Under the pieces are notes generated by a model. The model worked only from the letters and a program-made list of their open reading frames with translations. It was not told the DNA's origin and searched no databases. Below are positions 32,690 to 56,409 of a DNA stretch of 60,847 nt, in pieces. This DNA comes from a virus: positions 1 through 60,847 of the IMG/VR virus record IMGVR_UViG_3300034137_000025; one strand, written 5' to 3'. Made by a program: the position numbers and the translations under genes. The number at the start of each line of letters is the position of its first letter. Within the stretch, counting starts at the first letter, position 1.

Positions 32690-32703
32690 ATTGGCACCCA
32701 AAG

Positions 32704-32726: not shown

Positions 32727-32747
32727 CGTTATACCTGAAGGTCGCTC

Positions 32748-33209: not shown

Positions 33210-33252
33210 TTGCACCATCCTGCTCAATTTGAAGCAGCAGTATGCATCACCT

Positions 33253-33288: not shown

Positions 33289-33290
33289 GA

Positions 33291-34160: not shown

Positions 34161-34303
34161 CCGGTGTCCTCCCTTTGGGGAGCTGTAAACAAGAAAGCCC
34201 CAGCAAATGCCGAGGTTCGTAATGGGCGGCATAGAGAAAGTCTATGAATTTTTTGGCTGAGCATTAGATCGGTTTAGAGACATTGTCATTCAGAGAAAAG
34301 GCT

Positions 34304-34528
34304 ATGCCACTAGAACACCACTACCGGATCGATTACCTGTTACACGGCACTTGCAAATCTTTCTACGTCCGCGCTGCAACCATGAGCAATGCGGAAGCGT
34401 GGCATTGGGCGACATTAGACGCTGGTATCGGCCAGATTCCCAAGTACCGCACCGATCCGGTGCCCAAACTGAGCAAGCCTCAGGCCGAGCGGTTTGGACT
34501 CACCAACGTTGAATGGGTACTAACCTGA
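34304..34528 (+). CDS. Small conserved-looking protein (DUF6555-like)
   Basis: 74 residues from the ATG at 34304. HYRIDYLLHGTCKSFYVRAA then SNAEAWHWATLDAGIGQIPK resembles a small family found in Pseudomonas and its phages (recalled as DUF6555; not checked). Read on the plus strand against the late operon, thus probably a separate lysogen-expressed unit. Function unknown. The stretch 34529-34767 shows no gene. Confidence 0.55.
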   Translation: MPLEHHYRIDYLLHGTCKSFYVRAATMSNAEAWHWATLDAGIGQIPKYRTDPVPKLSKPQAERFGLTNVEWVLT

Positions 34529-34767
34529 TTGGCGCGTTCGTTCTCGCTACCGATGATCGCCGCCGCGGAGGGGCTGGAGGCGGCACTTGCCAGCGTTTAG
34601 TTGTATAGAGTGATGCGGGGTAGCGAGAGGAAAATCCCCGCATTGTTGCCTGCGCAACGAATGGCTCAGTGCACCTTCACGCCGGTCATCGGAACCGCCG
34701 AACCGTGCATTGCAGAGAACTCAGAGCAGCCTCATAGTGGCAAATTTACATCACAGAGACATGCACC

Positions 34768-35079
34768 ATGCCGTGGCAGCGTTCAGACAACAAACGTTAT
34801 TCAGGGAAGCTCGACAGCATCTTCGTATCGATCTTTGAGGCCTGGGATGCTGAACATTTTATTGATCAATATCTCGACCTACGTGGATACAAGGTTAATG
34901 ACACAAACCGCGACCTCGTCGCCCTACGGCTCGAGGCTGTCCCTGGACGTCCTCCCTATCGGGCGCACCAATTGGTCGAATGGTTGGATGAGCAATACAA
35001 GATGGTCAGCCGAGGAGCAGCCGACCATTCCATAATTGACACCCCAACCCTCGGCCCCGTGCTCTCAGTCGGGCTATGA
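34768..35079 (+). CDS. Hypothetical protein
   Basis: 103 residues, MPWQRSDNKRYSGKLDSIFV, then charged helical parts (FEAWDAEHFIDQYLDLRGYK). No Shine-Dalgarno of note. The amino-acid composition is normal and it lies beside another plus-strand gene, which gives mild support. No family recognised. Confidence 0.4.
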   Translation: MPWQRSDNKRYSGKLDSIFVSIFEAWDAEHFIDQYLDLRGYKVNDTNRDLVALRLEAVPGRPPYRAHQLVEWLDEQYKMVSRGAADHSIIDTPTLGPVLSVGL

Positions 35080-35285
35080 AGCTGTTGGGCCAACCGACCT
35101 CAGCCTCACAGGCCCCGTTGCGCCCCTTTCCGCACACGATCTAGCTACTCTAGGGTGTCTTTACCCCTGGCAGCGGTCAACATCAAACATGAAAGTTGGC
35201 CGCAACAGCACTCCCAGCTCAGAGCAATGGGTGTGGCGGAGCCGAAACTGCTGGGTCGCGTTGCAGTAACCCTAATTAGGTACAT

Positions 35286-35325
35286 CCGGGAAAGCATCCA
35301 CTTGGGTAGCGGCTTTCCTCGGAGG
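35286..35325. repeat. Stem-loop A of a duplicated element
   Basis: CCGGGAAAG (35286-35294) pairs with CTTTCCTCGG (35313-35322); the loop contains TCCACTT and GTAGCG. 36 of 42 bases match stem-loop B at 36299-36340. Between 35080 and 35426 I see no gene; a T-rich stretch at 35388 follows AGGGTCCGCGCTAGGCAGACCCTT, a possible plus-strand terminator. Confidence 0.65.
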
Positions 35326-35426
35326 CAGGGAGATCCTACGTATTCAACTATCCAATCAAAGCGAAAGGGTCCGCGCTAGGCAGACCCTTTTTTATGCTCA
35401 GTGAAAGAGCATTTACCTCTCTAGAA

Positions 35427-35855
35427 TCAAGGCAGTAGATCGTATGTCACGTACGCCTTGCCATCACCAGCCTGTGACAAAGCGACCCAAAGTCCTTTGC
35501 CAGCAGGAATTGTCAAAGGAAACGGGAGGCTAACAGACGCGCCAGCGTTGGAGCCCGCCGGGGCGTTGGTCCCGCGAACCGAGAGCAATACCGGCACGTT
35601 TACGGCGCTGTAGCCAGACGGCGCGGTTGCGCCCGCCGGGGCGTTGGTCCCGCGAACCGAGAGCAATACCGGCACGTTTACGGCGCTGTAGCCAGACGGC
35701 GCGGTTGCGCCCGTCGACAGAATCCCGTACGCGGCACCGACCTGCATGGTTGCAGTTCGGAGAATTGCACCATTTACGTTCTGAGCCGGAGTAAAAACAG
35801 CCTCCACTGCAGTTGTGCTGGTAGAGAAGAACTTTTCACCAATTTGTTCAGCCAT
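35427..35855 (-). CDS. Phage protein with an internal 26-residue duplication
   Basis: 142 residues from the ATG at 35855 (AGGTG six bases upstream), directly behind the Com-like gene. Residues include two identical copies of GATAPSGYSAVNVPVLLSVR plus GTNAPA, encoded by a perfect 78-bp tandem repeat. The rest is beta-rich (KFFSTSTTAVEAVFTPAQNV; PLTIPAGKGLWVALSQAGDG), as in small tail or capsid decoration proteins. Single-copy relatives would have 116 residues. Role unknown. Confidence 0.65.
   Translation of the reverse strand: MAEQIGEKFFSTSTTAVEAVFTPAQNVNGAILRTATMQVGAAYGILSTGATAPSGYSAVNVPVLLSVRGTNAPAGATAPSGYSAVNVPVLLSVRGTNAPAGSNAGASVSLPFPLTIPAGKGLWVALSQAGDGKAYVTYDLLP
35553..35713. repeat. Perfect 78-bp tandem duplication
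   Basis: 35553-35630 and 35631-35708 are identical, and five further bases continue the match. 78 is divisible by three, so the reading frame is kept. Identity without any silent change indicates a very recent event. Confidence 0.9.
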
Positions 35856-35864
35856 TGTGTTCAC

Positions 35865-36050
35865 CTATTGAGTCGAATGATTTTGTGCGGAGAATTCCGC
35901 TTTCATGTCGCTCAAAGGCGATGACTCGGGGCTCGTGGCCCTCACATGATTCAACGTCCCGCATCGGGAACATTTGATCTGGAGTTCGGTGTACTCACCC
36001 ACTCGGGCAAGAAGTCGTTTGCGTTTCCCACATCTGCAATCTTTCAACAT
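35865..36050 (-). CDS. com: Com-like zinc-finger translational regulator
   Basis: 61 residues from the ATG at 36050. LKDCRCGKRKRLLARVGEYT then LQIKCSRCGTLNHVRA has the CxC...CxxC zinc-binding pattern of phage Mu Com. In Mu, Com binds mom mRNA and opens its start region. Here no mom gene follows; the next gene overlaps the leader of the duplicated-repeat protein at 35427, which may be the regulated partner. A longer reading to 36314 crosses the terminator and is rejected. Confidence 0.75.
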   Translation of the reverse strand: MLKDCRCGKRKRLLARVGEYTELQIKCSRCGTLNHVRATSPESSPLSDMKAEFSAQNHSTQ

Positions 36051-36298: not shown

Positions 36299-36340
36299 CC
36301 GGGAAAGTGTCCACTTTAGTAGCGACTTTCCCCGGAGGGA
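36299..36340. repeat. Stem-loop B of a duplicated element
   Basis: CCGGGAAAG (36299-36307) pairs with CTTTCCCCGG (36326-36335); the loop again carries TCCACTT and GTAGCG. It is fused to the 3' end of the tRNA-like sequence, whose acceptor strand forms one arm. Confidence 0.65.
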
Positions 36341-36400
36341 CTCGAACCCACGACCGGCGACTTAGTAAGAAGCTGCTCTATCCAGCTGAGCTACGGGGCC
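36327..36400 (-). tRNA. Degenerate tRNA-like sequence
   Basis: Read from 36400 it starts GGCCCCGTAGCTCAGCTGGA, with a complete D-arm (GCTC...GAGC) and a T-arm GTGGGTTCGAGTCCCTC, 74 nt in all. The fold is recognisable but has mismatches at 1-72, 2-71, in two anticodon-stem pairs and one T-stem pair. Taking the 7-nt loop TTACTAA the anticodon would be ACT, which is not secure. No CCA is encoded. It may be a decayed tRNA or a tRNA mimic in the late transcript. Confidence 0.5.
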
Positions 36401-36472
36401 ATAAAGGCATCGGCGAACCGACAACCAAGTTATACGCCCAAACTCTTGCACCTGCAATGCCATTCTGCCATC

Positions 36473-41386: not shown

Positions 41387-41584
41387 TCAGGCGGCGGACT
41401 TTCGCGCCGGAATTGGCCTGATCTCATTGGCTTCAACTGTTCCGTCATCCATCAACGTGATGGATATGGCCCGGTTCGAGCGATGCATCTGGGATACGGC
41501 GCTCTGCTGAATACCCAGAGCCTTGGCGAGATCGCTCTGGGTGCCATGAGCTGACAGGTACTCCCCAAGGGTTACGGTCTTCAT
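41387..41584 (-). CDS. cro: Cro-like repressor
   Basis: 65 residues. MKTVTLGEYLSAHGTQSDLA then KALGIQQSAVSQMHRSNRAI is a Cro-type helix-turn-helix, with short beta tail. First gene of the leftward operon, divergent from the CI gene with three shared operators between them. It would shut off repressor synthesis during lytic growth. The cro leader is about 30 nt. Confidence 0.87.
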   Translation of the reverse strand: MKTVTLGEYLSAHGTQSDLAKALGIQQSAVSQMHRSNRAISITLMDDGTVEANEIRPIPARKSAA

Positions 41585-41613: not shown

Positions 41614-41694
41614 ATATTAGCACTGCTGTTTTGAAAAAAACAAGGAAAGGATTAGCACTGCTGTTTGCACAAATAACAGCGGTGCTACTTAATC
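41614..41694. promoter_or_regulatory. Immunity switch: operators O1-O3, cro promoter and repressor promoter
   Basis: TTAGCACTGCTGTT occurs at 41617-41630 and 41652-41665; an inverted third site AACAGCGGTGCTAC lies at 41675-41688. Minus strand: TTGTTT (41643-41638), 18 bp, TAATAT (41619-41614) for cro, with O1 inside. Plus strand: TTGCAC (41665-41670), 18 bp, TTAATC (41689-41694) for the repressor, with O3 inside the spacer. The repressor transcript would start at or next to its ATG (41701). Confidence 0.8.
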
Positions 41695-41700: not shown

Positions 41701-42522
41701 ATGAAGAAACCGATTAGAACGCCGCTAACCCAAGAGCAGCTGGCTGATGCCCAGCGCCTGCGGGATGCGTACAAGCGAAAAGTTGCCGAGTCGAAGGCCT
41801 TGGGCCAGACGCCAACTTTGAACCAGGCGGAGGTCGGGTCGATGTGCGGCTGGAATTCGCCTCAAAGCACTGTCAGCCAGTACATGAACGGCAAGGTGGC
41901 GCTGAATCTCGATGCACTGATCAAGTTGTCCCATGCATTGGACTTTGAGCCAGCAGATGTGAGCCCCACTCTTGCCGCTGGCATTACTCGGGCGCCAGAT
42001 CCAGGCGCTGCACAGCTTGAGGCTCGAGAGGCACCAGCGTCCGCCGCGAAAACGCCTCTTCCGGCCGGCAGCGACCTTGATGATGACCGTGACGAGAAAT
42101 ACGCCTTCATCCCTCAATATTCAGCAAAGGCAGCAGCAGGATTTGGTCACGAGAATCCACACGTCGAATCCCTCGCCACGCTCGCCTTCAAGCGCGAATG
42201 GCTCAAGATGAAGGGAGTCAACCAAAAGCATCTGATCGTGATCTATGCCGACGGCGACAGCATGTGGCCGACGATCAACGACCACGATGTTCTATTGTTG
42301 GACACGTCCAAGACAGAGCCAGCTGATGGACAGGTGTTTGTTCTGACTAGTGCTGATAAGGGTGCGATCGTAAAGCGCCTAGTCCAAACGCCCTTGGGCG
42401 GTTGGATCATTCGGAGCGACAACGACGACTGCGACGATTATGCGGACGTGATGCTTTCACGCAGCGAGGTAAACGAGCACAGGATCATAGGAAAGGTTAT
42501 CTGGCGCGGCGGGGATTTGTAG
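41701..42522 (+). CDS. cI: CI-like prophage repressor (S24 self-cleaving)
   Basis: 273 residues. HTH at about 40-85 (LNQAEVGSMCGWNSPQSTVS, YMNGKVALNLDALIKLSHAL), linker, and an S24 peptidase domain from about 135. Cleavage site A146-G147 (KAAAGFG), catalytic S187 (DGDSMWPT) and K225 (AIVKRL) are present. RecA filaments would trigger self-cleavage and induction. Probably translated from a leaderless or nearly leaderless mRNA, as lambda cI from PRM. The site is complete and should be functional. Confidence 0.93.
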   Translation: MKKPIRTPLTQEQLADAQRLRDAYKRKVAESKALGQTPTLNQAEVGSMCGWNSPQSTVSQYMNGKVALNLDALIKLSHALDFEPADVSPTLAAGITRAPDPGAAQLEAREAPASAAKTPLPAGSDLDDDRDEKYAFIPQYSAKAAAGFGHENPHVESLATLAFKREWLKMKGVNQKHLIVIYADGDSMWPTINDHDVLLLDTSKTEPADGQVFVLTSADKGAIVKRLVQTPLGGWIIRSDNDDCDDYADVMLSRSEVNEHRIIGKVIWRGGDL

Positions 42523-43484: not shown

Positions 43485-44150
43485 ATGCAGAATCTAAACA
43501 CCGTCGTCATTGATCAGCCCCTAGAAGTGCAGCACGCTCTTGCCTCTATTGGGCTTACCAAAGAAATAGTCATAGGCATCGCAAAGAGCGCGGCATATGC
43601 CAGAGCCGAATATCTTCCCAGCGTTGATCCTGTCAACTTCCCAGGAACTCGCGCCTATCAAGAAGGCACCAGGCAGCTACGCTTGCAGACCAAGCCTGAC
43701 GGTTGGGTTACGAAAAAATTCAATAACATCGAGCTTATTCACAGTTCTGATGCCGGCCTAATGCTCGGCTTTCAAAATGTCGATCATGCCTGCTCTAGTA
43801 AAGATCCTCAGGCCATCTCCCGTCGGGGCGAGGGTACCAAGCAGCTCGTATCCATGCCGTACCAAACGAACCTCTTTGGGGGTGGTAACAGCGTTGCTTA
43901 CTCATCCGCTCCAAGTGGAGTTTTTCCTGTCGTTTGGTTCGTTTGTGTGGCCGCGCATGCAGATCGTATTCAAGTCGAGGTATCTCGACCTAAGCCTTTT
44001 GAGGGCGATCAGTTTAATGGCTTTTTTGAGAGAATTTTTGTAGCGGATGAGAGCCTCGAATCCGACGAACCTACTCCGGCACGCCTTGATGACGATATTG
44101 AGGATGATCACGACTTCACAATCACCAAAAAGCAAAATGGCAACTCTTAA
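43485..44150 (+). CDS. Unknown protein, partner of the ImmA-like peptidase
   Basis: 221 residues from the ATG at 43485. Mixed alpha/beta: ASIGLTKEIVIGIAKSAAYA, FPGTRAYQEGTRQLRLQTKP, a basic centre and SGVFPVVWFVCVAAHADRIQ near the C-terminus, ending in acidic repeats (ESDEPTPARLDDDIEDDHDF). No family recognised. Its 3' end overlaps the next gene by 14 bp, so the two form one translation-coupled unit behind the palindromic promoter. It may be an effector held in check by, or cleaved by, the ImmA-like protein. Confidence 0.72.
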   Translation: MQNLNTVVIDQPLEVQHALASIGLTKEIVIGIAKSAAYARAEYLPSVDPVNFPGTRAYQEGTRQLRLQTKPDGWVTKKFNNIELIHSSDAGLMLGFQNVDHACSSKDPQAISRRGEGTKQLVSMPYQTNLFGGGNSVAYSSAPSGVFPVVWFVCVAAHADRIQVEVSRPKPFEGDQFNGFFERIFVADESLESDEPTPARLDDDIEDDHDFTITKKQNGNS

Positions 44151-45210
44151 CTTAACTCGCCTGACTTTTGCGAGGAAGCGACGGCAGCTTACGCAGAAGC
44201 AGCTCGCGGAGTTGGCGGGCATTTCAAGCATCACTCTAACCCGCATACTCAAGGGCGTAATCATATCGCCTGGCGATGAGACGATAGCGTCGTTGGCCAA
44301 GGCGTTAGGTTATCCAGTCAGTTTTCTCTTCATGGATGACATCGATGAGCTGGATGAGAAAGAAGTTAGCTTCAGAAGCTTGAAGGCAATGACTGCCAAA
44401 CAAACCGACGCAGCTTTAGCTAGCGGCTCACTGGGCTACATATTTAACGACTGGGTGTCTAGTAAGTTCAATTTGCCTGAAGCTGATCTCCCGGAGCTCC
44501 GATCCGAAGATCCCGCATCCGCCGCAGCGGCGATCCGCAGGCATTGGGGTATTGGATTCCGTCCGATCCCTAACCTGATAAAGCTCTTAGAGTCAAAAGG
44601 GGTCAGGGTATTCACCCTCGCGGAAGGAAAGAACGTCGATGCTTTCTCTTTCTGGAGAGATGGCGTTCCTTATATGTTCCTGAACACGCTGAAGTCTGCT
44701 GAGCGCAGCCGTTTTGATGCGGCCCATGAGCTCGGCCACCTGTTGATGCACTGCCACGGATATCCAGATGGGCGCGAAGTCGAAAGGGAGGCGGATACCT
44801 TTGCCTCACAATTGCTGATTCCTAGAGAAGATCTTCTTGCTCACCTCCCGGCACTTCCGTCATTGAGGAAAATACTCGCGAGTAAGCACAGGTGGGGGGT
44901 TTCAGTTGCCGCGCTAGCACGTACCGCCAGGGATTCTGAACTCCTGACTGACTGGCATTACAGGGAGCTTTGTAAACAGATAGCGACTGCTGGGTATCGC
45001 ACCAAGGAGCCGGAATCCATTCCGCGCGAACGGTCTGTACTCTGGAAGAAGGTACTGGAGGAGCTGTGGAGGGATGGGCACACAAAAGAGACCATAGCTA
45101 CACAGTTATGCCTGCCACTTGACGAAGTTCACTCGCTTCTCCAAGGGGTGTTGGGCGGGATACTTCTCACGGAAAGGACCGCCGCCGCACAGCCCCTCCG
45201 GCTGGTATAG
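44137..45210 (+). CDS. XRE HTH - ImmA/IrrE-type metallopeptidase
   Basis: 357 residues from the ATG at 44137. HTH at residues about 6-62 (LTRLTFARKRRQLTQKQLAE; RILKGVIISPGDETIASLAK), helical linker, zinc peptidase domain with H197-E-L-G-H201 and third ligand E218 (VEREADTFASQLL). ImmA/IrrE proteins cut repressors or regulate toxins; fused HTH members often control their own promoter and neighbouring effectors. Not needed for the CI circuit, since CI has its own cleavage domain. A terminator follows at 45227. Confidence 0.87.
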   Translation: MATLNLTRLTFARKRRQLTQKQLAELAGISSITLTRILKGVIISPGDETIASLAKALGYPVSFLFMDDIDELDEKEVSFRSLKAMTAKQTDAALASGSLGYIFNDWVSSKFNLPEADLPELRSEDPASAAAAIRRHWGIGFRPIPNLIKLLESKGVRVFTLAEGKNVDAFSFWRDGVPYMFLNTLKSAERSRFDAAHELGHLLMHCHGYPDGREVEREADTFASQLLIPREDLLAHLPALPSLRKILASKHRWGVSVAALARTARDSELLTDWHYRELCKQIATAGYRTKEPESIPRERSVLWKKVLEELWRDGHTKETIATQLCLPLDEVHSLLQGVLGGILLTERTAAAQPLRLV

Positions 45211-46383: not shown

Positions 46384-46407
46384 AGCCCGCCGCTGTGCGG
46401 GCTTTTT
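46384..46407 (+). terminator. Intrinsic terminator
   Basis: AGCCCGC-cgctgt-GCGGGCT stem and TTTTTC on the plus strand behind the DUF1654-like gene. Confidence 0.75.
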
Positions 46408-46416: not shown

Positions 46417-46466
46417 TTGAAAATATATTAGCAGTGCTGTTTAAAGACAATATCAGCAGTGCTAAT
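46417..46466 (+). promoter_or_regulatory. Repressor-controlled rightward early promoter with two operators
   Basis: TTAGCAGTGCTGTT (46428-46441) and, inverted, ATCAGCAGTGCTAAT (46452-46466) match the operators beside the repressor gene. TTGAAA (46417-46422), 17 bp, TTTAAA (46440-46445) is a promoter with the first site in its spacer. Equivalent of lambda PL/OL, facing the recombination operon. Confidence 0.8.
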
Positions 46467-46976
46467 TTACATCCATCGAAGCGGTCCTCACTCAGGGACC
46501 GGCGGAGATACCGCTCTTTAGCCACACAGCAACACCCTTGCCGGATAACCACCGGCCCAGCAGTACAGGCAGCGATGAGTCGGCCTTAACGACTCAGATG
46601 GGTGGCCACTACCCAGGGCGTGCAGCGTAAAGCGCCAAGACAAGTGTTCCAGCGGAAGAATCCGAAAGGCCGCGGCTGGAGAGAAAGATACACCGAATAT
46701 TTACGCCAACCCCCTTGAGCGGAGGATTCGCACCGATGCACCACTAAGCGATTCACCAGTGCGGCGCAGTAAGCCTGAAGGCTGCGCCCAATACCTGACA
46801 GGCAGCGGAAAGCAGGGCCGACAATGCGACCGCGCATTGGCCGTAAGGTAGGCCCACCCCGACGCATCAAGACATCGCTGATGCAGCAAGCCCGGTCCGA
46901 CGCCAGTTGCGGGACCGGGTCACAGATTTCACTGGCAGCCCTTCTCGCGAGGGGCTGACGGGAAATCAACAGCCCT
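46450..46976 (+). ncRNA. Hairpin-rich leader RNA candidate of the early operon
   Basis: About 500 nt between the repressor-controlled promoter and the first gene (46987) hold no plus-strand gene but a chain of stems: CGGTCC/GGACCG (46482/46496), GCCGG/CCGGC (46540/46552), TGAGTCG/CGACTCA (46576/46590), GGCGCA/TGCGCC with an inner GCC-tgaa-GGC (46763/46783), CAATGCG/CGCATTG (46822/46833) within GGGCC/GGCCC, GCATCA/TGATGC (46864/46879), CCCGGTCC/GGACCGGG (46891/46912) and CAGCCC/GGGCTG (46936/46952). GGAGG for the next gene follows. Lies where lambda has nut and HK022 has put antitermination sites. Confidence 0.5.
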
Positions 46977-46986
46977 GGAGGCCACC

Positions 46987-47409
46987 ATGAACGCAGCTTT
47001 GCAGATAGCACAATTGAACTACGACCGTGTATTGCCTCCTGAGGATAACGAGGCGGCAGATGTAGCGCGCAGCAACTGGCTATTTGAGTCAGCAGAGATG
47101 CTGATTCGCGGCAGTGACGTGATTTTCCAGCGGCGGATGCGCTCGCCTCAAAGCGTCAGCTACGCCGAGTTCGCCACAGCTGTTCAGGATCATCTGAATC
47201 AGCAGCAGATTGACGGCAATGATGACGAAGACTCGTTCGCACACCTAGTCATCGACGCGTTAGCTGGAGCGCCATGCAGGACACCAGCACTCAACCTGCT
47301 CGGAGAGTCGACCCACACCCACGGCAAGCTCTACGAGATAGCTGATGCCCTACTTGAGCCCTACGCCGATGACGCGCTGATCGCCAAGGCTGAGGACGAT
47401 GCGCTATGA
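46987..47409 (+). CDS. Hypothetical protein, first gene of the rightward early operon
   Basis: 140 residues, acidic and helical: NAALQIAQLNYDRVLPPEDN, DVIFQRRMRSPQSVSYAEFA, HGKLYEIADALLEPYADDAL. GGAGG seven bases before the ATG. It overlaps the next gene by four bases. No family recognised; early phage genes in this place often code for host-takeover proteins. Confidence 0.65.
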   Translation: MNAALQIAQLNYDRVLPPEDNEAADVARSNWLFESAEMLIRGSDVIFQRRMRSPQSVSYAEFATAVQDHLNQQQIDGNDDEDSFAHLVIDALAGAPCRTPALNLLGESTHTHGKLYEIADALLEPYADDALIAKAEDDAL

Positions 47410-47600
47410 GTCGCCAAGCCATTGAAGCGGCCATTGCGGCAATACCCGGCCACTACAACCCCGATCTTGCCTCAGGCATCGCAGAGGGGCTGGTGATCGC
47501 CTACTTCACTTCGCAGGTTATCGACTCGGACAACTTCAAAGACTACTGCGCGCAGATCCTGGCCGAGAGCCAAGCGCGCCAACCAAGGAGAGCGGCATGA
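47406..47600 (+). CDS. Hypothetical early protein
   Basis: 64 residues, IEAAIAAIPGHYNPDLASGI then FTSQVIDSDNFKDYCAQILA, helical. Four-base overlaps on both sides (ATGA) show translational coupling. No family recognised. Confidence 0.65.
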   Translation: MSRQAIEAAIAAIPGHYNPDLASGIAEGLVIAYFTSQVIDSDNFKDYCAQILAESQARQPRRAA

Positions 47601-47776
47601 ATACTGCCCCGGTTAAAACGTTGATCGACGAGCAGGTTGAAGAGCTTGAAACCCGAACCCGACCAGCCCTGGTGCGTGGCACTTTCTCCCCGCATCGGGG
47701 CATGCGTGTGGCCGATCTGCCTTACCCCATCAAAGCGGACTGGCTCAAGCGCCGACCGATCAAGGTGTGGAGATGA
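47597..47776 (+). CDS. Short early protein
   Basis: 59 residues, ATG at 47597 overlapping the previous stop: MNTAPVKTLIDEQVEELETR, then basic (TFSPHRGMRVADLPYPIKAD). The next gene again overlaps by four bases. The unbroken chain of ATGA junctions makes a real gene likely although it is short. Confidence 0.6.
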   Translation: MNTAPVKTLIDEQVEELETRTRPALVRGTFSPHRGMRVADLPYPIKADWLKRRPIKVWR

Positions 47777-47892
47777 CTGCCAATCAGCGCCGACGCCGCT
47801 TGGTGTTCTGGCGCGGCAGCTTCCCGGTCCTATTCGTGTTCACGATCGTATTCCTCGCGACCGCCCTGGCCGACCGCATCGCCCCGCTCTAA
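47773..47892 (+). CDS. Small single-pass membrane protein
   Basis: 39 residues from the ATG at 47773 (ATGA overlap): a basic start MTANQRRRRLVFWRGS, one membrane segment FPVLFVFTIVFLATALADRI, then stop. The positive-inside N-terminus indicates a cytoplasmic start. Small early membrane proteins of phages can act in exclusion or host shut-off; nothing more can be inferred. Confidence 0.55.
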   Translation: MTANQRRRRLVFWRGSFPVLFVFTIVFLATALADRIAPL

Positions 47893-47944
47893 CCCCCTAA
47901 TTTCACATATCACAGCGCCCCTCTCCGGTGGCGTGGAGAAGCTC

Positions 47945-48700
47945 ATGTCCGATTTGACCGTTAAGCAAAGTTTCAGCCTCACCCCGTCCTCTCTGACCGA
48001 AGCGATGGAGTTCGCAGGCATCCTCGCCAAGTCCACCATCGTGCCGAAAGAGTTCCTCGGAAACCCGGGCAACATTCTTGTCGCCATCCAGTGGGGCCTT
48101 GAGCTGGGGCTGCAACCGCTTCAGGCAATGCAGAACATCGCCGTCATCAACGGTCGCCCTGCCCTCTGGGGTGATGCAGTGATCGCCCTGGTGCGCGGCT
48201 CGACTCTTTGCGAATACGTGTACGAAGAGGACGACGGACATGTAGCAACCTGCCGCGTGAAGCGCCGGGGCGAGAACGAACAGGTCCGCACATTCAGCAT
48301 GGATGACGCCAAGATCGCCGGTTTGATGGGCAAGCAAGGGCCTTGGACCCAGCACCCGAAGCGTATGCGCCAGATGCGCGCCAGGGCGTTTGCATTGCGT
48401 GACGTGTTCCCTGATGTGCTGCGCGGTATGCCAGTTGCGGAAGAGCTGCAGGACATGCCGAAAGAGCGCGAGCCAGGCGCAGCGCTGGCGAGCGTTCAGA
48501 AGATTGCCGCACCGGTGGAGCTGCCAGCTTACGACGATGAAAAGTTTGAGGAGATGATCCCTAAGTGGCAAGAGGGGGTTGATGCCCGCAAGACTGACTC
48601 GGAAAGCCTGATCGCCTTCCTTGCTTCCAAATACGTGCTCAGCGAAGCGCAAATTGAGCGCATCAACAAAATGACACCTATTGAAGGGGCAGCCGCATGA
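47945..48700 (+). CDS. recT: RecT-family single-strand annealing protein
   Basis: 251 residues from the ATG at 47945. LTPSSLTEAMEFAGILAKST, NPGNILVAIQWGLELGLQPL and MQNIAVINGRPALWGDAVIA are signature segments of RecT/Redbeta-type annealases. The C-terminal 60 residues are charged and probably contact the nuclease or SSB. Its last four bases overlap the exonuclease gene. Works with YqaJ nuclease and NinB/NinG in phage recombination. Confidence 0.88.
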   Translation: MSDLTVKQSFSLTPSSLTEAMEFAGILAKSTIVPKEFLGNPGNILVAIQWGLELGLQPLQAMQNIAVINGRPALWGDAVIALVRGSTLCEYVYEEDDGHVATCRVKRRGENEQVRTFSMDDAKIAGLMGKQGPWTQHPKRMRQMRARAFALRDVFPDVLRGMPVAEELQDMPKEREPGAALASVQKIAAPVELPAYDDEKFEEMIPKWQEGVDARKTDSESLIAFLASKYVLSEAQIERINKMTPIEGAAA

Positions 48701-50331
48701 AGATCCATAACGTTTCCCAAGGCAGCGCCGAGTGGCATGCCCTCCGCGCCCAGCACTTCACCGCGTCCGAAGCCCCGGCAATGATGGGCGCTTCGAAGTA
48801 CCAGACCCGCACCGAACTGCTTACCCAGAAGAAAACAGGCATCAGCCCGGACGTGACGCCGCAACAGCAGCGCATATTCGACAAGGGTCACGCCACCGAG
48901 GCTCTGGCCCGCCCGCTGGTTGAGGTGATGATCGGCGAAGAGCTTTACCCAATCGTCGGCAGCAAAGGGAATCTGTTGGCGTCGATGGATGGCGCAACCA
49001 TGATGTGCGACACGCTGTTCGAGCATAAGCTCTGGAACGAATCGCTTGTCGCCCGGGTGCGCACCGAGGATTTGGCGTCCCACTACTACTGGCAGCTTGA
49101 GCAGCAATTGTTGGTGAGTGGTGCCGAGCGAGTCATCTTCGTTTGCTCGGATGGCACCGAAGAGAACTTCGTTTCGATGGAATACCGCGCCGTCCCGGGT
49201 CGTGCCGAGCAATTGGTCGAAGGCTGGAAACAGTTTGAGGCTGACCTCGCCGGTCACTCTCCCGTCGATTCAGTGGTCGAAGCGGTCGGCAAGACACCGG
49301 ACAACCTGCCGGCGCTGCGCATCGAAGTAACCGGAATGGTCACCGCCAGCAACCTGGAGCAGTTCAAGGCGCATTCGCTGGCAGTGATCAGCGCCATCAA
49401 CACCGACCTCCAGACCGACCAGCACTTTGCTGATGCAGAGCAGACCGTGAAGTGGTGCGCCGGGGTGGAGGAAAAGCTGGCAGCGGCCAAGCAGCATGCT
49501 CTCAGCCAGACAGAAAGCATCGACGTGCTGTTCAGCACAATTGAAAGCATCAGCGAGCAGGTTCGGCAGAAACGTCTCGAACTCAACAAGCTGGTGACGG
49601 CACGCAAGAGCGCGATTCGCGAAGACATCGTGATGAGTGCGGCAAAGTCGCTGCAAAGTCATATCGACCAGATCAACTCGTCGCTGGGTGGCAAGGCGCG
49701 GCTACCGAAAGTGGCGGCGGACTTCGCCGGGGCCATCAAGGGCAAGAAGACAATCGCCAGCCTGCGGGATGCCGCCGACAGCGAGCTGGCCCGCGCCAAG
49801 ATCGAAGCCAGTCAACAGGGCGACAGCATCCGCTGCAACCTGAGCAGCCTGGACGAACTCGCCGCCGACTACACCTTCCTGTTCAACGACACCGAGCACC
49901 TGGTACTGAAGGCCAATGACGATCTGGTAGCGCTGGTCAAGGTTCGTATTTCCGAGCATCAGAAAGCCGAGGCCGTGAAGGAAGAGGCTCAACGAGAACG
50001 CATTCGCCAGGAAGAGAAACAGCGCCTTGAAGACGAGGCGGCTCGGGTCAGTGCTGAGGCCAAGCCAGCAACAAAAGTCGATCCTCCGCCGGTGGCGGCA
50101 GTGCCGGTATCCACCCGGGTCGCTGTCGCCCCTTCTGCGAAGGTTCCGGCGAAGGCGGTTCGGCTAGAAGCCAGGGTCACGGACATGGAAGCGCTGGTCA
50201 AGGCAGTTGCTGCCGGTAAGGCCCCTATTTCGGTCCTCACGGTCAACTGGCAAAACCTCGACGACCTAGTTGAGTCGCAAGGCTCTGAATTCAACATGCC
50301 GGGGGTGATTCTGGAGCAGGTGGCGGCATGA
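48697..50331 (+). CDS. YqaJ-type exonuclease with long C-terminal extension
   Basis: 544 residues. Residues 1-190 are the YqaJ viral recombinase fold (PD-(D/E)XK): QGSAEWHALRAQHFTASEAP, the GHATE segment near 65, CDTLFEHKLW with acidic/Lys residues and QLEQQLLVSGAERVIFVCS. From about 215 a long coiled coil and a helical tail (KTIASLRDAADSELARAKIE; AEAVKEEAQRERIRQEEKQR) follow, a DUF1351-like extension. Degrades 5' ends of double strands and hands the 3' strand to RecT. Such a fused tail is longer than in simple YqaJ proteins. Confidence 0.85.
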   Translation: MKIHNVSQGSAEWHALRAQHFTASEAPAMMGASKYQTRTELLTQKKTGISPDVTPQQQRIFDKGHATEALARPLVEVMIGEELYPIVGSKGNLLASMDGATMMCDTLFEHKLWNESLVARVRTEDLASHYYWQLEQQLLVSGAERVIFVCSDGTEENFVSMEYRAVPGRAEQLVEGWKQFEADLAGHSPVDSVVEAVGKTPDNLPALRIEVTGMVTASNLEQFKAHSLAVISAINTDLQTDQHFADAEQTVKWCAGVEEKLAAAKQHALSQTESIDVLFSTIESISEQVRQKRLELNKLVTARKSAIREDIVMSAAKSLQSHIDQINSSLGGKARLPKVAADFAGAIKGKKTIASLRDAADSELARAKIEASQQGDSIRCNLSSLDELAADYTFLFNDTEHLVLKANDDLVALVKVRISEHQKAEAVKEEAQRERIRQEEKQRLEDEAARVSAEAKPATKVDPPPVAAVPVSTRVAVAPSAKVPAKAVRLEARVTDMEALVKAVAAGKAPISVLTVNWQNLDDLVESQGSEFNMPGVILEQVAA

Positions 50332-50903
50332 TCAGCATGGAGCTGAGCAGTGTTCAGCACAACACGCAGAGATCAGCAGTTCTGTCCGTTGCCATGGAAA
50401 GCTTCCTCGCCAATGGCGGCACCATATCCACCCTGGAAGGTTTCGTGCAGAAGCCGAAGCCGCCTGCTGTGCCGTACGGACGCAAACCCACGCCTGCACC
50501 GAAGCCTGTAATCGATGCGCCGAGAAAGCTCAAGCGGCGCGCCGCTGTGCCGCGCATCAAGATCGCCCAGCTCATCAAGGACCGGGTCAGCGCCTTGGCG
50601 CCGGATATGACCAAGCAAGAGATCGTGAGAGCTACCGGCTTGAGCGAATACATGCTGAACCGGCTCGCGAAAGAATGCGGCATTGAGTACAAAAAACACG
50701 ACCCGACGCCATTCCTGAAACCGCCCCAGATCGACCCGATTGCAGATGCGATGAACGTCATCAGGGTCAAGGCGGCTCGTGACCAAGGCCTTGCGCGAAA
50801 GCAGGCGGCGGCCAGTTTGGGTATCAGCCGTACGTTAATTGATCGGTTGGTCGAGGATTACTGCATCGACTATCCCAAGCGGCCACCAGGTAAACGGCGT
50901 TGA
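50328..50903 (+). CDS. DNA-binding-like early protein with two HTH-type segments
   Basis: 191 residues, ATGA overlap with the nuclease. A Pro/Lys-rich N-terminal half and two repeated HTH-like stretches: TKQEIVRATGLSEYMLNRLA (about 106-125) and ARKQAAASLGISRTLIDRLV (about 160-179), each followed by an acidic ...YKK/DYPKR end. Two similar units suggest an internal duplication of a DNA-binding motif. Possible regulator of early genes. Confidence 0.65.
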   Translation: MISMELSSVQHNTQRSAVLSVAMESFLANGGTISTLEGFVQKPKPPAVPYGRKPTPAPKPVIDAPRKLKRRAAVPRIKIAQLIKDRVSALAPDMTKQEIVRATGLSEYMLNRLAKECGIEYKKHDPTPFLKPPQIDPIADAMNVIRVKAARDQGLARKQAAASLGISRTLIDRLVEDYCIDYPKRPPGKRR

Positions 50904-50994
50904 AGCGCATGCAATCCCACGCCAACCAGCGCCGCCGCCCACTTCAACTGCAAATCCCACCCAGCGGGCTCTTGGCCCTGACGGAGAAACGCCC

Positions 50995-51342
50995 ATGTCT
51001 ACCGCAACAGATACCGCCGAGTTTCTTGAAGAGCTGAACGGCGGCGCCTTCGCCAGCCAGATCGGCCACGCCCTTTCCGAAGTAGCCGCCGGCGTAATCG
51101 ATCACGGCAAAGTCGGGAAGCTGGTCATCACGCTGGACTTCTCCCAGATCGGCGAATCGGCCCAGGTGAAGATCAAGCACAAGCTCGACTACAAGGTGCC
51201 GACCAAGCGCGGTACCCGCAGCGAGAACACCAGCCTCGACACGCCGATGCACGTCGGCAGCGGGGGCAAGATCTCGCTGTTTGCCGAGAAGCACGACCAG
51301 TTGTTTACCCGAGAACAGGCGCCGATCAACCCGCGCACCTGA
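50995..51342 (+). CDS. Hypothetical early protein
   Basis: 115 residues from the ATG at 50995 (GGAG eleven bases upstream). EFLEELNGGAFASQIGHALS then beta strands (KLVITLDFSQIGESAQVKIK; LDYKVPTKRGTRSENTSLDT). It is regularly found before DUF2303 genes in Pseudomonas phages as far as I recall, but I cannot name a family. The frame 50839-50994 upstream is not used. Confidence 0.68.
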   Translation: MSTATDTAEFLEELNGGAFASQIGHALSEVAAGVIDHGKVGKLVITLDFSQIGESAQVKIKHKLDYKVPTKRGTRSENTSLDTPMHVGSGGKISLFAEKHDQLFTREQAPINPRT

Positions 51343-51379
51343 TCCCCGCTGCACCCCTTTCCCATAGAGACCTGAAAAC

Positions 51380-52192
51380 ATGTCGCTAACAGCAGAAGCA
51401 ATTCAACTGATCACGGACACCGCGCTGATCGCCACGGCAAAAGCGCTGGATACCAACACGCCCACCGTGGTGCTGCCCGAAGGCGCGAAGATTGTCAGCC
51501 TTGAGCAGTACAGCGCCGGACGTAGCCGCTTCCGTGGCACCTTCTCCACCAACTCGCTGCTGGACTTCAGCAAATACGTGATCGACCGCAACGTCGCGGA
51601 TGCCCAAGGCTTCATCAACCAGGATGAAATGACCTGCTCGGTGTTGTTCAATCTGGGCACTGAAGAAGTGCCAGGCCACGCTGATGACCGTGCGGTGTTG
51701 AAGCTGAAAGCCACTGCTGGTTATCAGGCAGTGCAGGCAATCAGCGGCCGCGCAATGTCGCAGAAGGACATGAGCGACTGGATCGAGGACTGGCACAGCA
51801 CGCTGTCGGCTGTTGGTGAAGACCTGCAGAACATCAGCCTGGTCAAAGCCATCGCGGCGGTGCGCACGATCTCGATCAAGGCCACTTCGGAAAGCGATCA
51901 CACCGTCAGCGAGACCCGCGCCAGCCGCAGCGCGATGGATGCCATCGAGGCAACCAGCAAAGAAACCCTGCCTACGTCGCTGATCTTCTCAGTGGTGCCG
52001 TTCGAAGGCCTGGCGCTGCGCGAGATCATATTGCGTATCTCGGTCGTTACCAGTGGCCCGGTACCGGTGCTGAAGTTGCGCTGGGTCGGCGAGGAGGTGC
52101 AGCGCGAGGCGATCGCTCAAGAATTCAAGTCTGTGCTGGAAGATAAGATTGGGACAGCAGCGAAACTGGCTCTGGGTAGTTTCGCTGCTTAA
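51380..52192 (+). CDS. DUF2303 (YfdQ-like) protein
   Basis: 270 residues. LITDTALIATAKALDTNTPT, RSRFRGTFSTNSLLDFSKYV and VVPFEGLALREIILRISVVT are typical of DUF2303/YfdQ proteins found in prophage early operons. No catalytic motif; a role in DNA metabolism or host modulation is assumed only from company. Last gene of the recombination operon. Confidence 0.82.
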   Translation: MSLTAEAIQLITDTALIATAKALDTNTPTVVLPEGAKIVSLEQYSAGRSRFRGTFSTNSLLDFSKYVIDRNVADAQGFINQDEMTCSVLFNLGTEEVPGHADDRAVLKLKATAGYQAVQAISGRAMSQKDMSDWIEDWHSTLSAVGEDLQNISLVKAIAAVRTISIKATSESDHTVSETRASRSAMDAIEATSKETLPTSLIFSVVPFEGLALREIILRISVVTSGPVPVLKLRWVGEEVQREAIAQEFKSVLEDKIGTAAKLALGSFAA

Positions 52193-52244
52193 TACTAACC
52201 CGCGCCTGCATGAGCTATGCTACCAACTGCCATGCAGGCGAGAG

Positions 52245-52965
52245 TTATTTTGGCTCAGGGGATGGAAGTGCTTTTCTTGGCTCTAAGTTCTTAAAAACCT
52301 TTTTAGCCCTGTATGGAATAATGTATGTGCCTATCAGAATATGCTCGATAACCTCCAGGGCCAAAAGCAGCTGATTTTTGGTAGGAGCTTTCCCTCTATG
52401 TGCCGCATGGTTACCCAAGACCCTTATCTTGTGGAGCGTCTGAACACCCTCTTCAGTAACCAACGATCGCGCATGAAGATTGTCGATTTTAAGCTCCAAA
52501 TTCCTACCCTTAGCCTCCACGTCGGAGCAGATAGTGTCCAGGATCGCTCGTATCCCAATGCCGCTGATTATCAACAAATCGTTATCTAGCGCGCTTCTAG
52601 TCTCGCGGTAGATTTGTTCAATATCAAACGGCAAAGAGGCATGATCGATAATTTTCGATCCAACAACCCGTCCAGGATAAAACGTAACAGTGGATACCCA
52701 GTATGCATCGCCGCTGTCATCGTGATCCCAATCCTCCGAGTTAGACGATTCGACTCGAAAGGATATTTCTTCACATCCTAAACATTGGATGATCTGGTTA
52801 TGCTCAGTCCACTCGACCGCATTGCCACCACCGCAATCTTCAAACCCCTCTTTCTGTATAGGTGGCGACAATCTTGTGATTCGAGCTCAAGCAACATTTC
52901 TTGCAAGGAAATTTCTGAGTTTCGCCATCAAGGGTTACATCGAATGTTTTAGTTATCGGCGCCAT
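52245..52965 (-). pseudogene. DUF4145 protein gene, frameshifted
   Basis: The frame from ATG 52965 encodes MAPITKTFDVTLDGETQKFP then CKKCCLSSNHKIVATYTERG and stops near 52847; the remainder (GFEDCGGGNAVEWTEHNQII, then CLGCEEISF and the DUF4145 body with LHKIRVLGNHAAHRG) continues in another frame. Dropping one G of the GGGG run at 52845-52848 restores one 239-residue protein with both CxxC pairs of its zinc ribbon. DUF4145 is a HEPN-type domain often seen in defence loci. An independent downstream start in the second frame (52871) would lack half of the zinc ribbon. Confidence 0.7.
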
Positions 52966-53006
52966 ATGCGATTCCTTCGCGGTTTTTGCTAAACGACACC
53001 AATACT

Positions 53007-53035
53007 CCACTTCAACGAATCACACCACACTGGCG
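53007..53035. repeat. 29-bp direct repeat, copy 1
   Basis: CCACTTCAACGAATCACACC then ACACTGGCG; copy 2 at 54109-54137 differs at two positions. The stretch 52966-53290 holds no supported gene; on the plus strand a short frame end (TIDSREALAKLMEWAGSNSK) looks like the remnant of a coding sequence. Confidence 0.55.
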
Positions 53036-53178
53036 TCAATGCACGATCGATTCACGGGAAGCCCTGGCTAAGCTGATGGAATGGGCTGGCTCGAACAGCA
53101 AGGTGAGGCGCTGACGTTGATGATCCATCATCTGCACGGGCTGGGTGCTGCTCGGTGCCTGCCCCTGCTTTCGCCGCC

Positions 53179-53213
53179 GCGCCACGTTTTCGTACTAACG
53201 GAATGTGTGGCGC
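53179..53213. repeat. GCGCCAC hairpin, copy 3
   Basis: GCGCCAC (53179-53185) and GTGGCGC (53207-53213) around 21 nt. Arms correspond to the inner part of the hairpins at 33253 and 40160. Confidence 0.5.
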
Positions 53214-53290
53214 TTGAGTTTCGCAACAAAAGCCTACTGGCAATCATGAAAGACCCGGGCGACGAGATTATTGAGCCTCAGTATTGACGT

Positions 53291-53581
53291 CTACTTGAGA
53301 GAGTTTCGATCAGTGAAGACATTACCGCGGACAGATGGCGCGTAGACTTCGGTCGCGCCCATCAGGCTAGCATTCACAAGCTCCACCATCACAGCCGCCT
53401 TAGTTAAGCCGCAACCAGGCAGTAGCTCGTAATTTTTTTTGGAAATCCTATCTATCTGCATTTCGTATTTTTCTTCGCTATCGCAGATCAAGGAACCCTT
53501 CTGAAGCATGTGCGCCGCCGCGCTGGACTCAGCACCCACAAGGAAGGCAGACAGCCCGGTGACAGCTAGAAAAAACCTCAT
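53291..53581 (-). CDS. Secreted small protein of unknown function
   Basis: 96 residues from the ATG at 53581. Signal peptide MRFFLAVTGLSAFLVGAESS AA with cleavage near residue 22; the mature part has two cysteines (ICDSEEKYE and LLPGCGLTKAAVMVE) that may pair. GGAG lies before the start. It resembles small periplasmic phage proteins; no family recognised. Confidence 0.62.
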   Translation of the reverse strand: MRFFLAVTGLSAFLVGAESSAAAHMLQKGSLICDSEEKYEMQIDRISKKNYELLPGCGLTKAAVMVELVNASLMGATEVYAPSVRGNVFTDRNSLK

Positions 53582-53695
53582 TGACTCACTCCTTTGATCC
53601 GGCTCCATGCCGGTCACCCGTAATACCCCAACTCAAACCAAATAGCCACTATGTCGCATCCGGTCACGGAGGGCGGCGCATGCACTCGAGGTAAC

Positions 53696-54061
53696 TCAGT
53701 TTCTACCAAACAAATCTTCAACGATAAGCGCAGGTATGCGGGCGAAGCCGGCAGCAATAGACAGATGATAGCGATGATAACCATCGAAAAGCGCATATCT
53801 GAATTCAGTATTCCTGCCTACGATTGGGTAGACCTCAATGGGCGGAATCTCAGCGCCAGATAGCATGCCTTGAACGATTGATTCAGCTCTATCGATATTT
53901 AGAAGGGAGACGTCGGGCTTTCTTTCGGGCGGCCGTATGTCTTCGAGGGCGAGGAGAAACACGATATCTCGAGCGCTTTCCCATAAGTAGCTTTCTGAAT
54001 CGCATGGCCTCTTGATGCCTGCTTGGGTGAGGATCTGTCTGGCTTGAACGCGTACGTCCAT
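53696..54061 (-). CDS. ParB/sulfiredoxin-fold protein
   Basis: 121 residues from the ATG at 54061 (AAGGTGG six bases upstream). The C-terminal half IPPIEVYPIVGRNTEFRYAL then FDGYHRYHLSIAAGFARIPA is the ParB/Srx nuclease-like signature (GxHR-like GYHR). Members range from ParB CTPases to DNases and modification enzymes; this short one lacks the central HTH of ParB, so partitioning is unlikely. A stand-alone enzymatic or regulatory domain is assumed. Confidence 0.68.
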   Translation of the reverse strand: MDVRVQARQILTQAGIKRPCDSESYLWESARDIVFLLALEDIRPPERKPDVSLLNIDRAESIVQGMLSGAEIPPIEVYPIVGRNTEFRYALFDGYHRYHLSIAAGFARIPALIVEDLFGRN

Positions 54062-54108
54062 TTGATACCACCTTAGGCCGGTCAAGTGCTGGTCAGCACA
54101 CCATTACC

Positions 54109-54137
54109 CCACTTCAACGAATCACGCCACACCGGCG
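54109..54137. repeat. 29-bp direct repeat, copy 2
   Basis: CCACTTCAACGAATCACGCC then ACACCGGCG, directly in front of the gene at 54148. Differs from copy 1 (53007) by two transitions. Confidence 0.55.
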
Positions 54138-54147
54138 AGGATGATCT

Positions 54148-54477
54148 ATGTCCGTTCAGCACGCAGCGTTCACGAAGACTTTCACCGAGCCTGGCACGTT
54201 CCAGGCGCTCTACGCTGCACAGAGGTGGCTGGATGAAAACGGCTACAGCTACGGACCTGGCTCGGCAATGCATCCTGTCCCGGTCCTCAAAGGCGACTTC
54301 ATCATCGCCAAGTGGAAGAACCTGACCCGCAAGGAGATAGCCCAGCTCGACGGCAAGATCGACGGCAATTTCCGCGAAGGCCCGGTCACTGTGACGCTGA
54401 AGGTCGAGCCTCAGGCAATATCACTTTCGACACCACCTCAAGGCCCGAGACGCTTAAACCGTCCCCCTTTTGGGTAA
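54148..54477 (+). CDS. Hypothetical protein
   Basis: 109 residues, SVQHAAFTKTFTEPGTFQAL, RWLDENGYSYGPGSAMHPVP and KNLTRKEIAQLDGKIDGNFR. GAGGATG lies before the ATG. The composition is that of a folded alpha/beta protein up to about residue 92; the last residues (PPQGPRRLNRPPFG) look like read-through tail. It is typical for the delayed early region of Pseudomonas phages. Function unknown. Confidence 0.62.
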   Translation: MSVQHAAFTKTFTEPGTFQALYAAQRWLDENGYSYGPGSAMHPVPVLKGDFIIAKWKNLTRKEIAQLDGKIDGNFREGPVTVTLKVEPQAISLSTPPQGPRRLNRPPFG

Positions 54478-54498
54478 ACATCGGCGCGGGCATGCTTC

Positions 54499-54780
54499 CT
54501 ACTTACACACACCGGTATTGAGGTAGTTGGTTACGGCCTTGATGTATGGCGAATTCTTGATCCACGTTGCATCTCGCATTGTCAGATCAACTGAGCCTCC
54601 ATTCTTATGGCCGACGATACTGGTGAATACCTGAGGTCCGGTCATGGTCTGCGGGCCGTATTCGATCCGGAATTCGTTCATTTTCGGATAAATAGCGCTG
54701 CGCACAATCCACTTGATGCAGTCACTGTCGCTGGGACCGCCGGCGGTCAGTTTGTAGTACACGTCATCGTGGCGCTTCAT
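54499..54780 (-). CDS. Hypothetical protein
   Basis: 93 residues, MKRHDDVYYKLTAGGPSDSD, MNEFRIEYGPQTMTGPQVFT and a Cys at the end. No signal peptide. Convergent to the gene before. No family recognised. The segment 54781-55022 contains no visible gene. Confidence 0.5.
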   Translation of the reverse strand: MKRHDDVYYKLTAGGPSDSDCIKWIVRSAIYPKMNEFRIEYGPQTMTGPQVFTSIVGHKNGGSVDLTMRDATWIKNSPYIKAVTNYLNTGVCK

Positions 54781-55022
54781 TTGGATAACAATGAGTGACA
54801 GCCACGCGCGGACCTAAAGGCGAGCATCGCCGACGTCAGCGATTTACACTCGCTCGCCCCTAGTCTGTAACAACCGGTCAAACGAATCACTCAGAATTAC
54901 GAGACGAACGAAAGAGATCCTAAAGCAAGTCTGGAACCTTGCTCATCAACTGGACAGCACTAGTTAACGAACCTTCTCTGGCTACTACCATATCACTCGT
55001 GGCAATAGAACAACGCCTCCCG

Positions 55023-55352
55023 CTAGACCGGTATTATTGCCTTAACTAAGCCATCGATAGCGATGTCCAGCAAACGGTATGTTATTTTTTGAAGCTTTGC
55101 TAACACCTTAATATTTGCATTATTAGCTTCTATTTGCGCTATTTTCTTTCCCTTTTTAAGAACCAACATGACATCATCGTATTTTATTTTTCCTTCCGCA
55201 TAGTAAACCAATGTTTTTGCGGTCTGCTCAGCCATGAATTTTAAAAAATCATTTTCGTCTTTCTTCGCCTGTCCTAAAAGCTCTAGGAATTCCTCTTTCA
55301 TTGCTTTGAGAGACTCGTCCTTTATACCTTCAATAACGTCATCAATGTTCAT
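55023..55352 (-). CDS. AT-rich helical protein, second gene of a cargo pair
   Basis: 109 residues, strongly helical and Lys/Glu-rich: MNIDDVIEGIKDESLKAMKE, KFMAEQTAKTLVYYAEGKIK, ANIKVLAKLQKITYRLLDIA. Codon and base use are AT-rich compared with phage genes around it. It follows the lipoprotein gene by nine bases, so both form an operon. Amphipathic C-terminal helix could bind membranes. No family recognised. Confidence 0.68.
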   Translation of the reverse strand: MNIDDVIEGIKDESLKAMKEEFLELLGQAKKDENDFLKFMAEQTAKTLVYYAEGKIKYDDVMLVLKKGKKIAQIEANNANIKVLAKLQKITYRLLDIAIDGLVKAIIPV

Positions 55353-55361
55353 CTTAAACCC

Positions 55362-55811
55362 CTACTTGCATTTAGCCTCTGGATGTGCGCACTCACCTAT
55401 AATCGCCCTATCATATGCCGGACCACTGACATCACGCATGCGATTAGCCTGCTCACGACTCAACACATAACGCCCGCGCCTAATGGCTTCAACATCGTCT
55501 GAAAATATTGAGTGCAAAATCATAATATTTGCAGTGCGCCATTGTTCATTCAAACTTCTGGAAAACTCAATCGCCTCTTGAAATTTCAACTCAAGGCTAT
55601 CGACAGCGGCATCAAATTCATGCCGATCATAGACATGACCGGGGGCAGCGGTTACATCATTTATCATTTTGATATGTGCCGCTTTGAGAGAGGTTAGATT
55701 TTGATGCGCGTCAGCGTTGTACCCCCCAATGAAAGTACAAGATATCAAAAGCAAAAGCATACTAAATATAACGCTAGCAGGACCTACCCGACCGACCCTA
55801 AGACTTAACAT
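55362..55811 (-). CDS. Putative lipoprotein, first gene of a cargo pair
   Basis: 149 residues from the ATG at 55811. Signal sequence ASVIFSMLLLLISC with lipobox LISC (Cys about 24), then a helical mature part (FDAAVDSLELKFQEAIEFSR; RYVLSREQANRMRDVSGPAY) with two late cysteines. AT-rich. A membrane-anchored protein and a small cytoplasmic helical protein in one operon recall superinfection-exclusion or phage-inhibitory pairs (inference). Confidence 0.65.
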   Translation of the reverse strand: MLSLRVGRVGPASVIFSMLLLLISCTFIGGYNADAHQNLTSLKAAHIKMINDVTAAPGHVYDRHEFDAAVDSLELKFQEAIEFSRSLNEQWRTANIMILHSIFSDDVEAIRRGRYVLSREQANRMRDVSGPAYDRAIIGECAHPEAKCK

Positions 55812-55983
55812 ATCGCCCACTCCTGACTGAAGTGATAAAGGCGAATACTCCAAACTACCTTCGCTGCGGTGTTTACGATAGAAATTCCTAGCTAGCCTAA
55901 GCTCGCAACAGCAGAAATTTCTGATCTTAACTCATAGACTACGAGTTGGAATAATGCAACACAAATCGGAGGAACGGGCACAA

Positions 55984-56409
55984 CTACAGCGGCGTGCCTA
56001 CATCTCGACCAGTTTGTTCACTGGTGCTGGATTCCTCAGCAGCGGTTGTAACCACCTCGTCGTGCTCGGATATTATGTTTTTTAGGCGCAGAGCAAGATG
56101 CCGGGTATCAAAGCTTTCATCCTCCAAATCCAGAAGTATGGCGTCGATACGGCTCCGGCTCATTCGATTGCTTCTCCACTTCCTCATGAACCCTCCGGCA
56201 GCCGCCATTCCCGTAAGCGCCGCCGCCGCCGCTGTAAGAGCAGAAGCAAACACCCTTCCGTCCGCAATCTGTATGAAGACGCCTGCGGCGATGCTGCATA
56301 TGATCGATCCGAAAATCGAAACGTGATGAGCTGTGCTCCAAGCACGTTGCCCGCGTGTATAGCGACGTCGCCAAACTTCACACTGTTCTTTTATTAGGAG
56401 ACGATCCAT
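55984..56409 (-). CDS. Two-TM protein of SLATT/DUF4231-like build
   Basis: 141 residues from the ATG at 56409. Amphipathic N-terminal helix (EQCEVWRRRYTRGQRAWSTA), two closely spaced membrane segments (HVSIFGSIICSIAAGVFIQI; FASALTAAAAALTGMAAAGG), then a basic/acidic helix (LDLEDESFDTRHLALRLKNI). This is the arrangement of SLATT-type effectors, which form pores in defence systems. No paired nucleotide-sensor gene is adjacent, so it may work alone or with the lipoprotein pair. Confidence 0.6.
   Translation of the reverse strand: MDRLLIKEQCEVWRRRYTRGQRAWSTAHHVSIFGSIICSIAAGVFIQIADGRVFASALTAAAAALTGMAAAGGFMRKWRSNRMSRSRIDAILLDLEDESFDTRHLALRLKNIISEHDEVVTTAAEESSTSEQTGRDVGTPL

Follow-up and report, generated by a model that had tools for sequence, protein, structure and literature searches.

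The window analysed here, a stretch of 60,847 nucleotides of viral DNA, carries a long leader between a repressor-controlled promoter and the first gene of the operon behind it. As judged by comparison with its relatives, the first half of this leader is structured, and the element within it, here called core A, is a conserved folded RNA that was previously undescribed. The reading that we favour, with a probability of roughly two in three, is that the leader is a boxA-assisted processive antitermination signal that would act as RNA, in the way that nut sites, put and rRNA leaders do. The match of its operators to those at CI/Cro, the conservation of boxA, the fold, the position and the distribution are established by sequence comparison.

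Promoter, operators and leader

The promoter is located on the plus strand at 46440–46468 and was read by eye, with a −35 hexamer TTTAAA (46440–46445), a 17-bp spacer and a −10 hexamer TAATTT (46463–46468). It fell below the threshold of a sigma-70 scan and was not called, while relatives have the same promoter layout with better hexamers. The hexamer positions predict a transcription start at about 46475, and thus a leader of about 510 nt up to the gene at 46987. The sole clear terminator (46384–46403) is upstream of this promoter. The first-pass annotation placed terminators in the early region, but a search of the plus strand from 47000 to 56000 found no strong intrinsic one.

Two operators accompany the promoter, at 46428–46440 (TTAGCAGTGCTGT) and at 46453–46465 (TCAGCAGTGCTAA), the second overlapping the −10. 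They were assigned on the basis of near-identical sites (TTAGCACTGCTGT) at 41617–41629 and 41652–41664, between the genes for a CI-like repressor (41701–42522, plus strand) and a divergent Cro-like regulator (41387–41584, minus strand), which is the first gene of the opposite operon. A further, related operator-like site lies between the same two genes at about 41676–41688. The earlier description of two CI-type operators and a promoter is therefore borne out, since the operator type recurs between CI and Cro-like genes. Between the CI gene and the leader there is also a helix-turn-helix regulator with metalloprotease similarity (phrog_2439, phrog_87; 44149–45207, plus strand), possibly part of the induction switch. 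It is worth adding that the window contains a tRNA-Ser gene with anticodon ACT (36326–36401, minus strand).

The first gene of the operon (46987–47409, plus strand) encodes a protein of 140 aa belonging to phrog_4801, with no assigned function. Its ATG at 46987 is preceded by the GGAGG ribosome-binding site at 46977–46981, as had been noted. Further along the plus strand come a RecT-like annealing protein (47951–48700) and a RecE-like exonuclease (48697–50331), and the operon corresponds to the left operon of lambda.

The leader itself (46475–46986) has no long plus-strand frame: there is a 44-aa ORF, together with a 64-aa frame that begins upstream of the promoter, which upholds the claim of some 500 nt without a plus-strand gene. 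When 46470–46986 was folded and compared with shuffled sequences, the plus strand gave z = −3.85 and the minus strand z = −1.16. Fold prediction places one hairpin upstream of boxA (46482–46501, plus strand) and another, H0, with the stem GCCGG/CCGGC, at 46540–46556 (plus strand). BLAST against phage records finds pieces of the leader in Pseudomonas phages, with differing pieces in each phage.

Core element A

Core A lies on the plus strand at 46566–46680 and consists of four covarying helices across 108 model positions, H1 (46576–46596), H2 (46599–46615), H3 (46617–46636) and H4 (46648–46680), and scores 111.5 bits with model R1. Folded singly, the core gives z values of −1.1 to −1.8, near those of shuffles, and the case for it is therefore one of covariation, not of energy.

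The check for covariation in relatives that the first-pass annotation had proposed revealed compensatory changes. In an alignment of 76 distinct cores, 99.5% of cells are paired, with 102 double-change cells against 19.9 in shuffles and 11 double-change pairs against 6.2, counts that are not probabilities because the aligned sequences are related. The signal is lost when the pairing partners are slid. These 76 cores were collected with a pattern in which GGCAGCGATGA and GCAGCGTAAAGC are fixed, so that the letters of both are constant by construction. A more diverged set, made up of pattern-collected loci and of copies found in whole genomes by the covariance model, has 96.2% of cells paired and double changes in 22 of 26 pairs, in a model-fitted alignment that leans towards structure. 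At one locus (L148) the stem letters are almost wholly different and the plan of core A is kept.

Within the window, model R1 finds a single copy, with none in the opposite (cro) operon. Core A is located within about 160 nt of repressor-controlled promoters, and the usual order, read by eye among the matches listed, is operator, −35, a second operator over the −10, and leader.

The boxA motif

Between the promoter and the core there is a boxA-like sequence, CGCTCTTTA, at 46512–46520 on the plus strand, the sole exact match in the window. The earlier description of the leader, sound as to operators, promoter and gene-less stretch, had overlooked it. In a set of 124 leaders, 93 carry TCTTTA ahead of the core, against an expectation of 0.02 per 140 nt, and a boxA-like motif is present in 176 of 251 distinct leaders. 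Each boxA base carries 1.5–2 bits of information, most flanking bases far less. The predicted start is 49–162 nt from the core in leaders with boxA and about 28 nt in those without.

In one Pseudomonas genome, five rRNA leaders contain CGCTCTTTAACA at a distance of 168 nt ahead of the 16S gene, and the boxA core there is the same as that of our leader. This raises the alternative that boxA alone matters, in that it would serve as a Nus-factor site of the rRNA type and keep Rho away from a long untranslated RNA, with the core protecting or spacing the RNA. The order of hairpin and boxA is indeed that of rRNA leaders, and the phages phi297, phiPSA1 and PseuP_222 have boxA followed by an RNA body other than core A. 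However, what stays constant in leaders of this type is the core: about 30% of the distinct leaders have it but show no recognisable boxA, either before it or in the 300 nt after it, and the core loops stay similar even in many of the copies retrieved by structure search. We regard this alternative as unlikely, although it survives better than those discussed below.

A second type of structured leader, T2 (GCGACCGGCGATCnGAnAGCC), was seen in 100 viral contigs (L004 2700–3110, L008 and L433–L506). It has boxA in 90 of 100 loci, 98% of its predicted cells are paired, and double changes occur in 6 of 21 pairs. Since boxA is combined with differing folded bodies in these leaders and in phi297, phiPSA1 and PseuP_222, boxA plus a folded body looks like the general plan of left-operon leaders in Pseudomonas phages, with core A as one such body.

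Distribution and gene context

The covariance model matches in 171 of 299 sampled Pseudomonas genomes. An order-wide sample gave matches in 6 of 295 genomes, all six of them also in the genus sample; outside Pseudomonas this sample yielded none under the strict filters used, with which diverged forms could be missed. Single pattern matches in Vibrio, an Ignavibacteriales and a gammaproteobacterial assembly were rejected, as the model does not match them, and a 28-bit match (L421) is apparently false. From a reading of the matches, L417 and L420 look like decayed or truncated copies.

Two loci were annotated in detail. In L425 the core heads a phage early operon with RecT. In L423 an S24 repressor, PrtR-like, is just upstream of the core, and behind it is the operon of a tailocin, a weapon derived from a phage tail, with baseplate, fibre, sheath and tape-measure genes. 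When seven loci were compared, two of tailocins and five of phages, the repressor was the only shared protein recognised beside the leader, and matches that fall at leader positions come from translating the RNA region itself. The tailocin locus L007 shares additional protein matches with the window away from the leader. The core heads operons as unrelated as RecT-containing early operons and PrtR-controlled tail operons, which speaks against a function tied to the gene that follows.

Modules behind the core

The PrtR-type (tailocin) leaders have a GC hairpin with a T-run after the core in 154 of 169 cases, compared with 2 of 77 other leaders; beyond the loci annotated in detail, the label PrtR-type rests on promoter sequence. 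In tailocin leaders the hairpin comes a median of 107 nt after the core, in most of them at 96–218 nt; the 156 hairpins comprise 61 distinct sequences. If the hairpin terminates, the operon needs antitermination. Its T-run can however pair with an A-run, so that it may not act as a terminator, and its ACTG/GG flanks, read by eye, resemble the inner loop of hairpin D (see below); from its sequence it might be a structural hairpin rather than a terminator. One tailocin-type leader, at about 2959–3300 of L424, has the boxA GATCTCTAG and an interrupted downstream hairpin, and is possibly a decayed copy.

The terminator-like hairpin of the tailocin leaders could be taken to mark the end of a separate small RNA acting in trans, which in the phages would instead be cut out at hairpins. 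Its presence in most tailocin leaders would suit this proposal, and the strongly conserved loops of the core could pair with or bind a target. Against it, the hairpin is almost always absent from non-tailocin leaders, and the element adjoins the promoter of an operon, which makes a trans-acting RNA improbable.

In the phage of the window, core A is followed by module B (46756–46860, plus strand), which occurs in 19 viral contigs. A 90% identical segment is found in phage Aurca01 (L001 5563–5667), in this case between genes and about 2.5 kb further downstream, and the leader modules therefore move. Behind module B is the hairpin H5 (46890–46920, plus strand), in which CGCCAGTNGCG sits within a long stem. 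H5-like motifs are present in 231 of 294 loci, at a median of 67 nt after core A, and in the tailocin type the outer stem of H5 shows compensatory changes.

The last element is hairpin D, or H6 (46925–46967, plus strand; z = −5.5 when folded singly), just before the ribosome-binding site. Its inner stem covaries. Hairpin D was seen in at least 120 viral contigs (L129–L245), some of them with two copies, and behaves as a free-standing cassette placed directly before the ribosome-binding sites of early genes. This location, shared with other genes of early operons, would be expected if the leader governed how stable the mRNA is or how the first gene is translated. The core, however, is common to operons with unrelated first genes and in the window is about 300 nt from the start codon, while most D loci have no core A; such control is thus a very unlikely function for the leader. 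Finally, a protein-coding leader was rejected, and the idea that the segment is coding or unselected spacer is almost certainly wrong: some deposited annotations do contain small hypothetical ORFs (L003), but at most 39 of 250 relatives keep any given frame open across the 210 nt around the core, so that the conserved protein frame named in the first-pass annotation as evidence against an RNA was not found, and the stems show compensatory changes.

Proposed mechanism

A conserved RNA close to the promoter, with boxA, and independent of the genes behind it points to modification of the polymerase. We hypothesise that loss of CI would lead to transcription from about 46475, and that the transcript would expose boxA, which is expected to bind NusB–S10. 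The compact four-helix core A would fold and load on the polymerase or its Nus complex, so that the polymerase would withstand termination throughout the remainder of the operon, and no N-like phage protein would be needed. Each of these steps, from the transcript start through Nus binding and loading to termination resistance, is one that we infer. In tailocin operons the same module would carry the polymerase past the terminator-like hairpin, which follows the core at about 107 nt, and on into the long structural operon. H5 and D would be further RNA modules, perhaps for RNA processing or translation start.

Counting against the antitermination reading are the lack of a recognisable boxA in about 30% of leaders, the absence of a strong downstream terminator, the single copy in the window, the ability of the tailocin T-run to pair with an A-run, and, for the shared-protein comparison, its size of seven loci and the further matches of L007. 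With no strong terminator downstream in the window, the likely target there would be Rho; and the leaders without boxA, in which the core is so close to the start, would fit a direct action like that of put. RNA-based antitermination had been proposed in the first-pass annotation, and boxA, the position close to the promoter, the tailocin hairpin and the finding that no shared antiterminator protein was recognised near the leader give it indirect support. The part of the proposal that fares less well is that the RNA works alone, which may be wrong for most members because boxA points to Nus factors. A bolder version, which we put forward tentatively and consider rather doubtful, is that this is an antitermination RNA of a new class, folded differently from put, whose boxA-less form would bind polymerase directly, and which Pseudomonas hosts would have adopted as a tailocin switch.

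Few antitermination RNAs are known to work without a dedicated phage protein. The present candidate is found in over half of the sampled Pseudomonas genomes, at prophage and tailocin switches, and offers a clue to how the polymerase is kept going in Pseudomonas phages that have no evident N gene and in the long operons of tailocins.

Comparison with known RNAs and systems

At the gathering score, Rfam 15 has no match to the leader and identifies in the window only a tRNA elsewhere; permissive Rfam searches of the leader gave sub-threshold matches only. A literature search whose coverage excluded most subscription journals turned up nothing on the core element, nor on the occurrence of boxA or of terminators in the leaders of tailocins or Pseudomonas prophages. 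The compensatory changes, the lack of a conserved frame or an Rfam match, and the wide occurrence lend strong support to the earlier suggestion of a structured phage RNA that is new and exceeds put in length.

The put RNA of HK022 suppresses terminators by binding the β′ zinc-binding domain, without protein factors. It is about 70 nt long, is located just downstream of an early phage promoter, has two adjacent stem-loops, and requires no dedicated protein (PMC9378689). The leader resembles it in being an RNA just past an early promoter, with adjacent stem-loops and no dedicated protein seen. It differs in having four helices, spread over 108 positions, and additional hairpins, and in that boxA is usual. 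Moreover, the element is in one operon of the window, whereas those of HK022 and lambda are behind both PL and PR. Model R1 run on HK022 26000–36000, in a record without put annotation, gave at best 4.9 bits (E 1.3), which is chance level. By size, helix number and copy number, the leader is not put.

As with lambda nut, the left early operon has a boxA in its leader, and here a conserved one, but the order is hairpin, boxA and large fold, rather than boxA then boxB. No N-like family was found among the ten window proteins scanned, and with no N recognised the leader is not nut in the strict sense.

Leaders of rRNA operons contain boxB, boxA and boxC and act with Nus factors and SuhB. Their order is hairpin (boxB), boxA, boxC (PMC6614801). 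A hairpin before boxA is common to both, and the boxA core is identical to that in a Pseudomonas rRNA leader, while the four-helix core after boxA, and the phage or tailocin genes that are driven, set the leader apart; because of core A, the leader is not an rRNA leader.

In the lambda late leader, which gives rise to 6S RNA, the terminator tR′ stands between the promoter and the structural operon. The terminator-like hairpin of the tailocin leaders occupies the same place, the difference being that the candidate antiterminator here is an RNA. Core A represents a structured RNA family that is new and probably has a role in antitermination.
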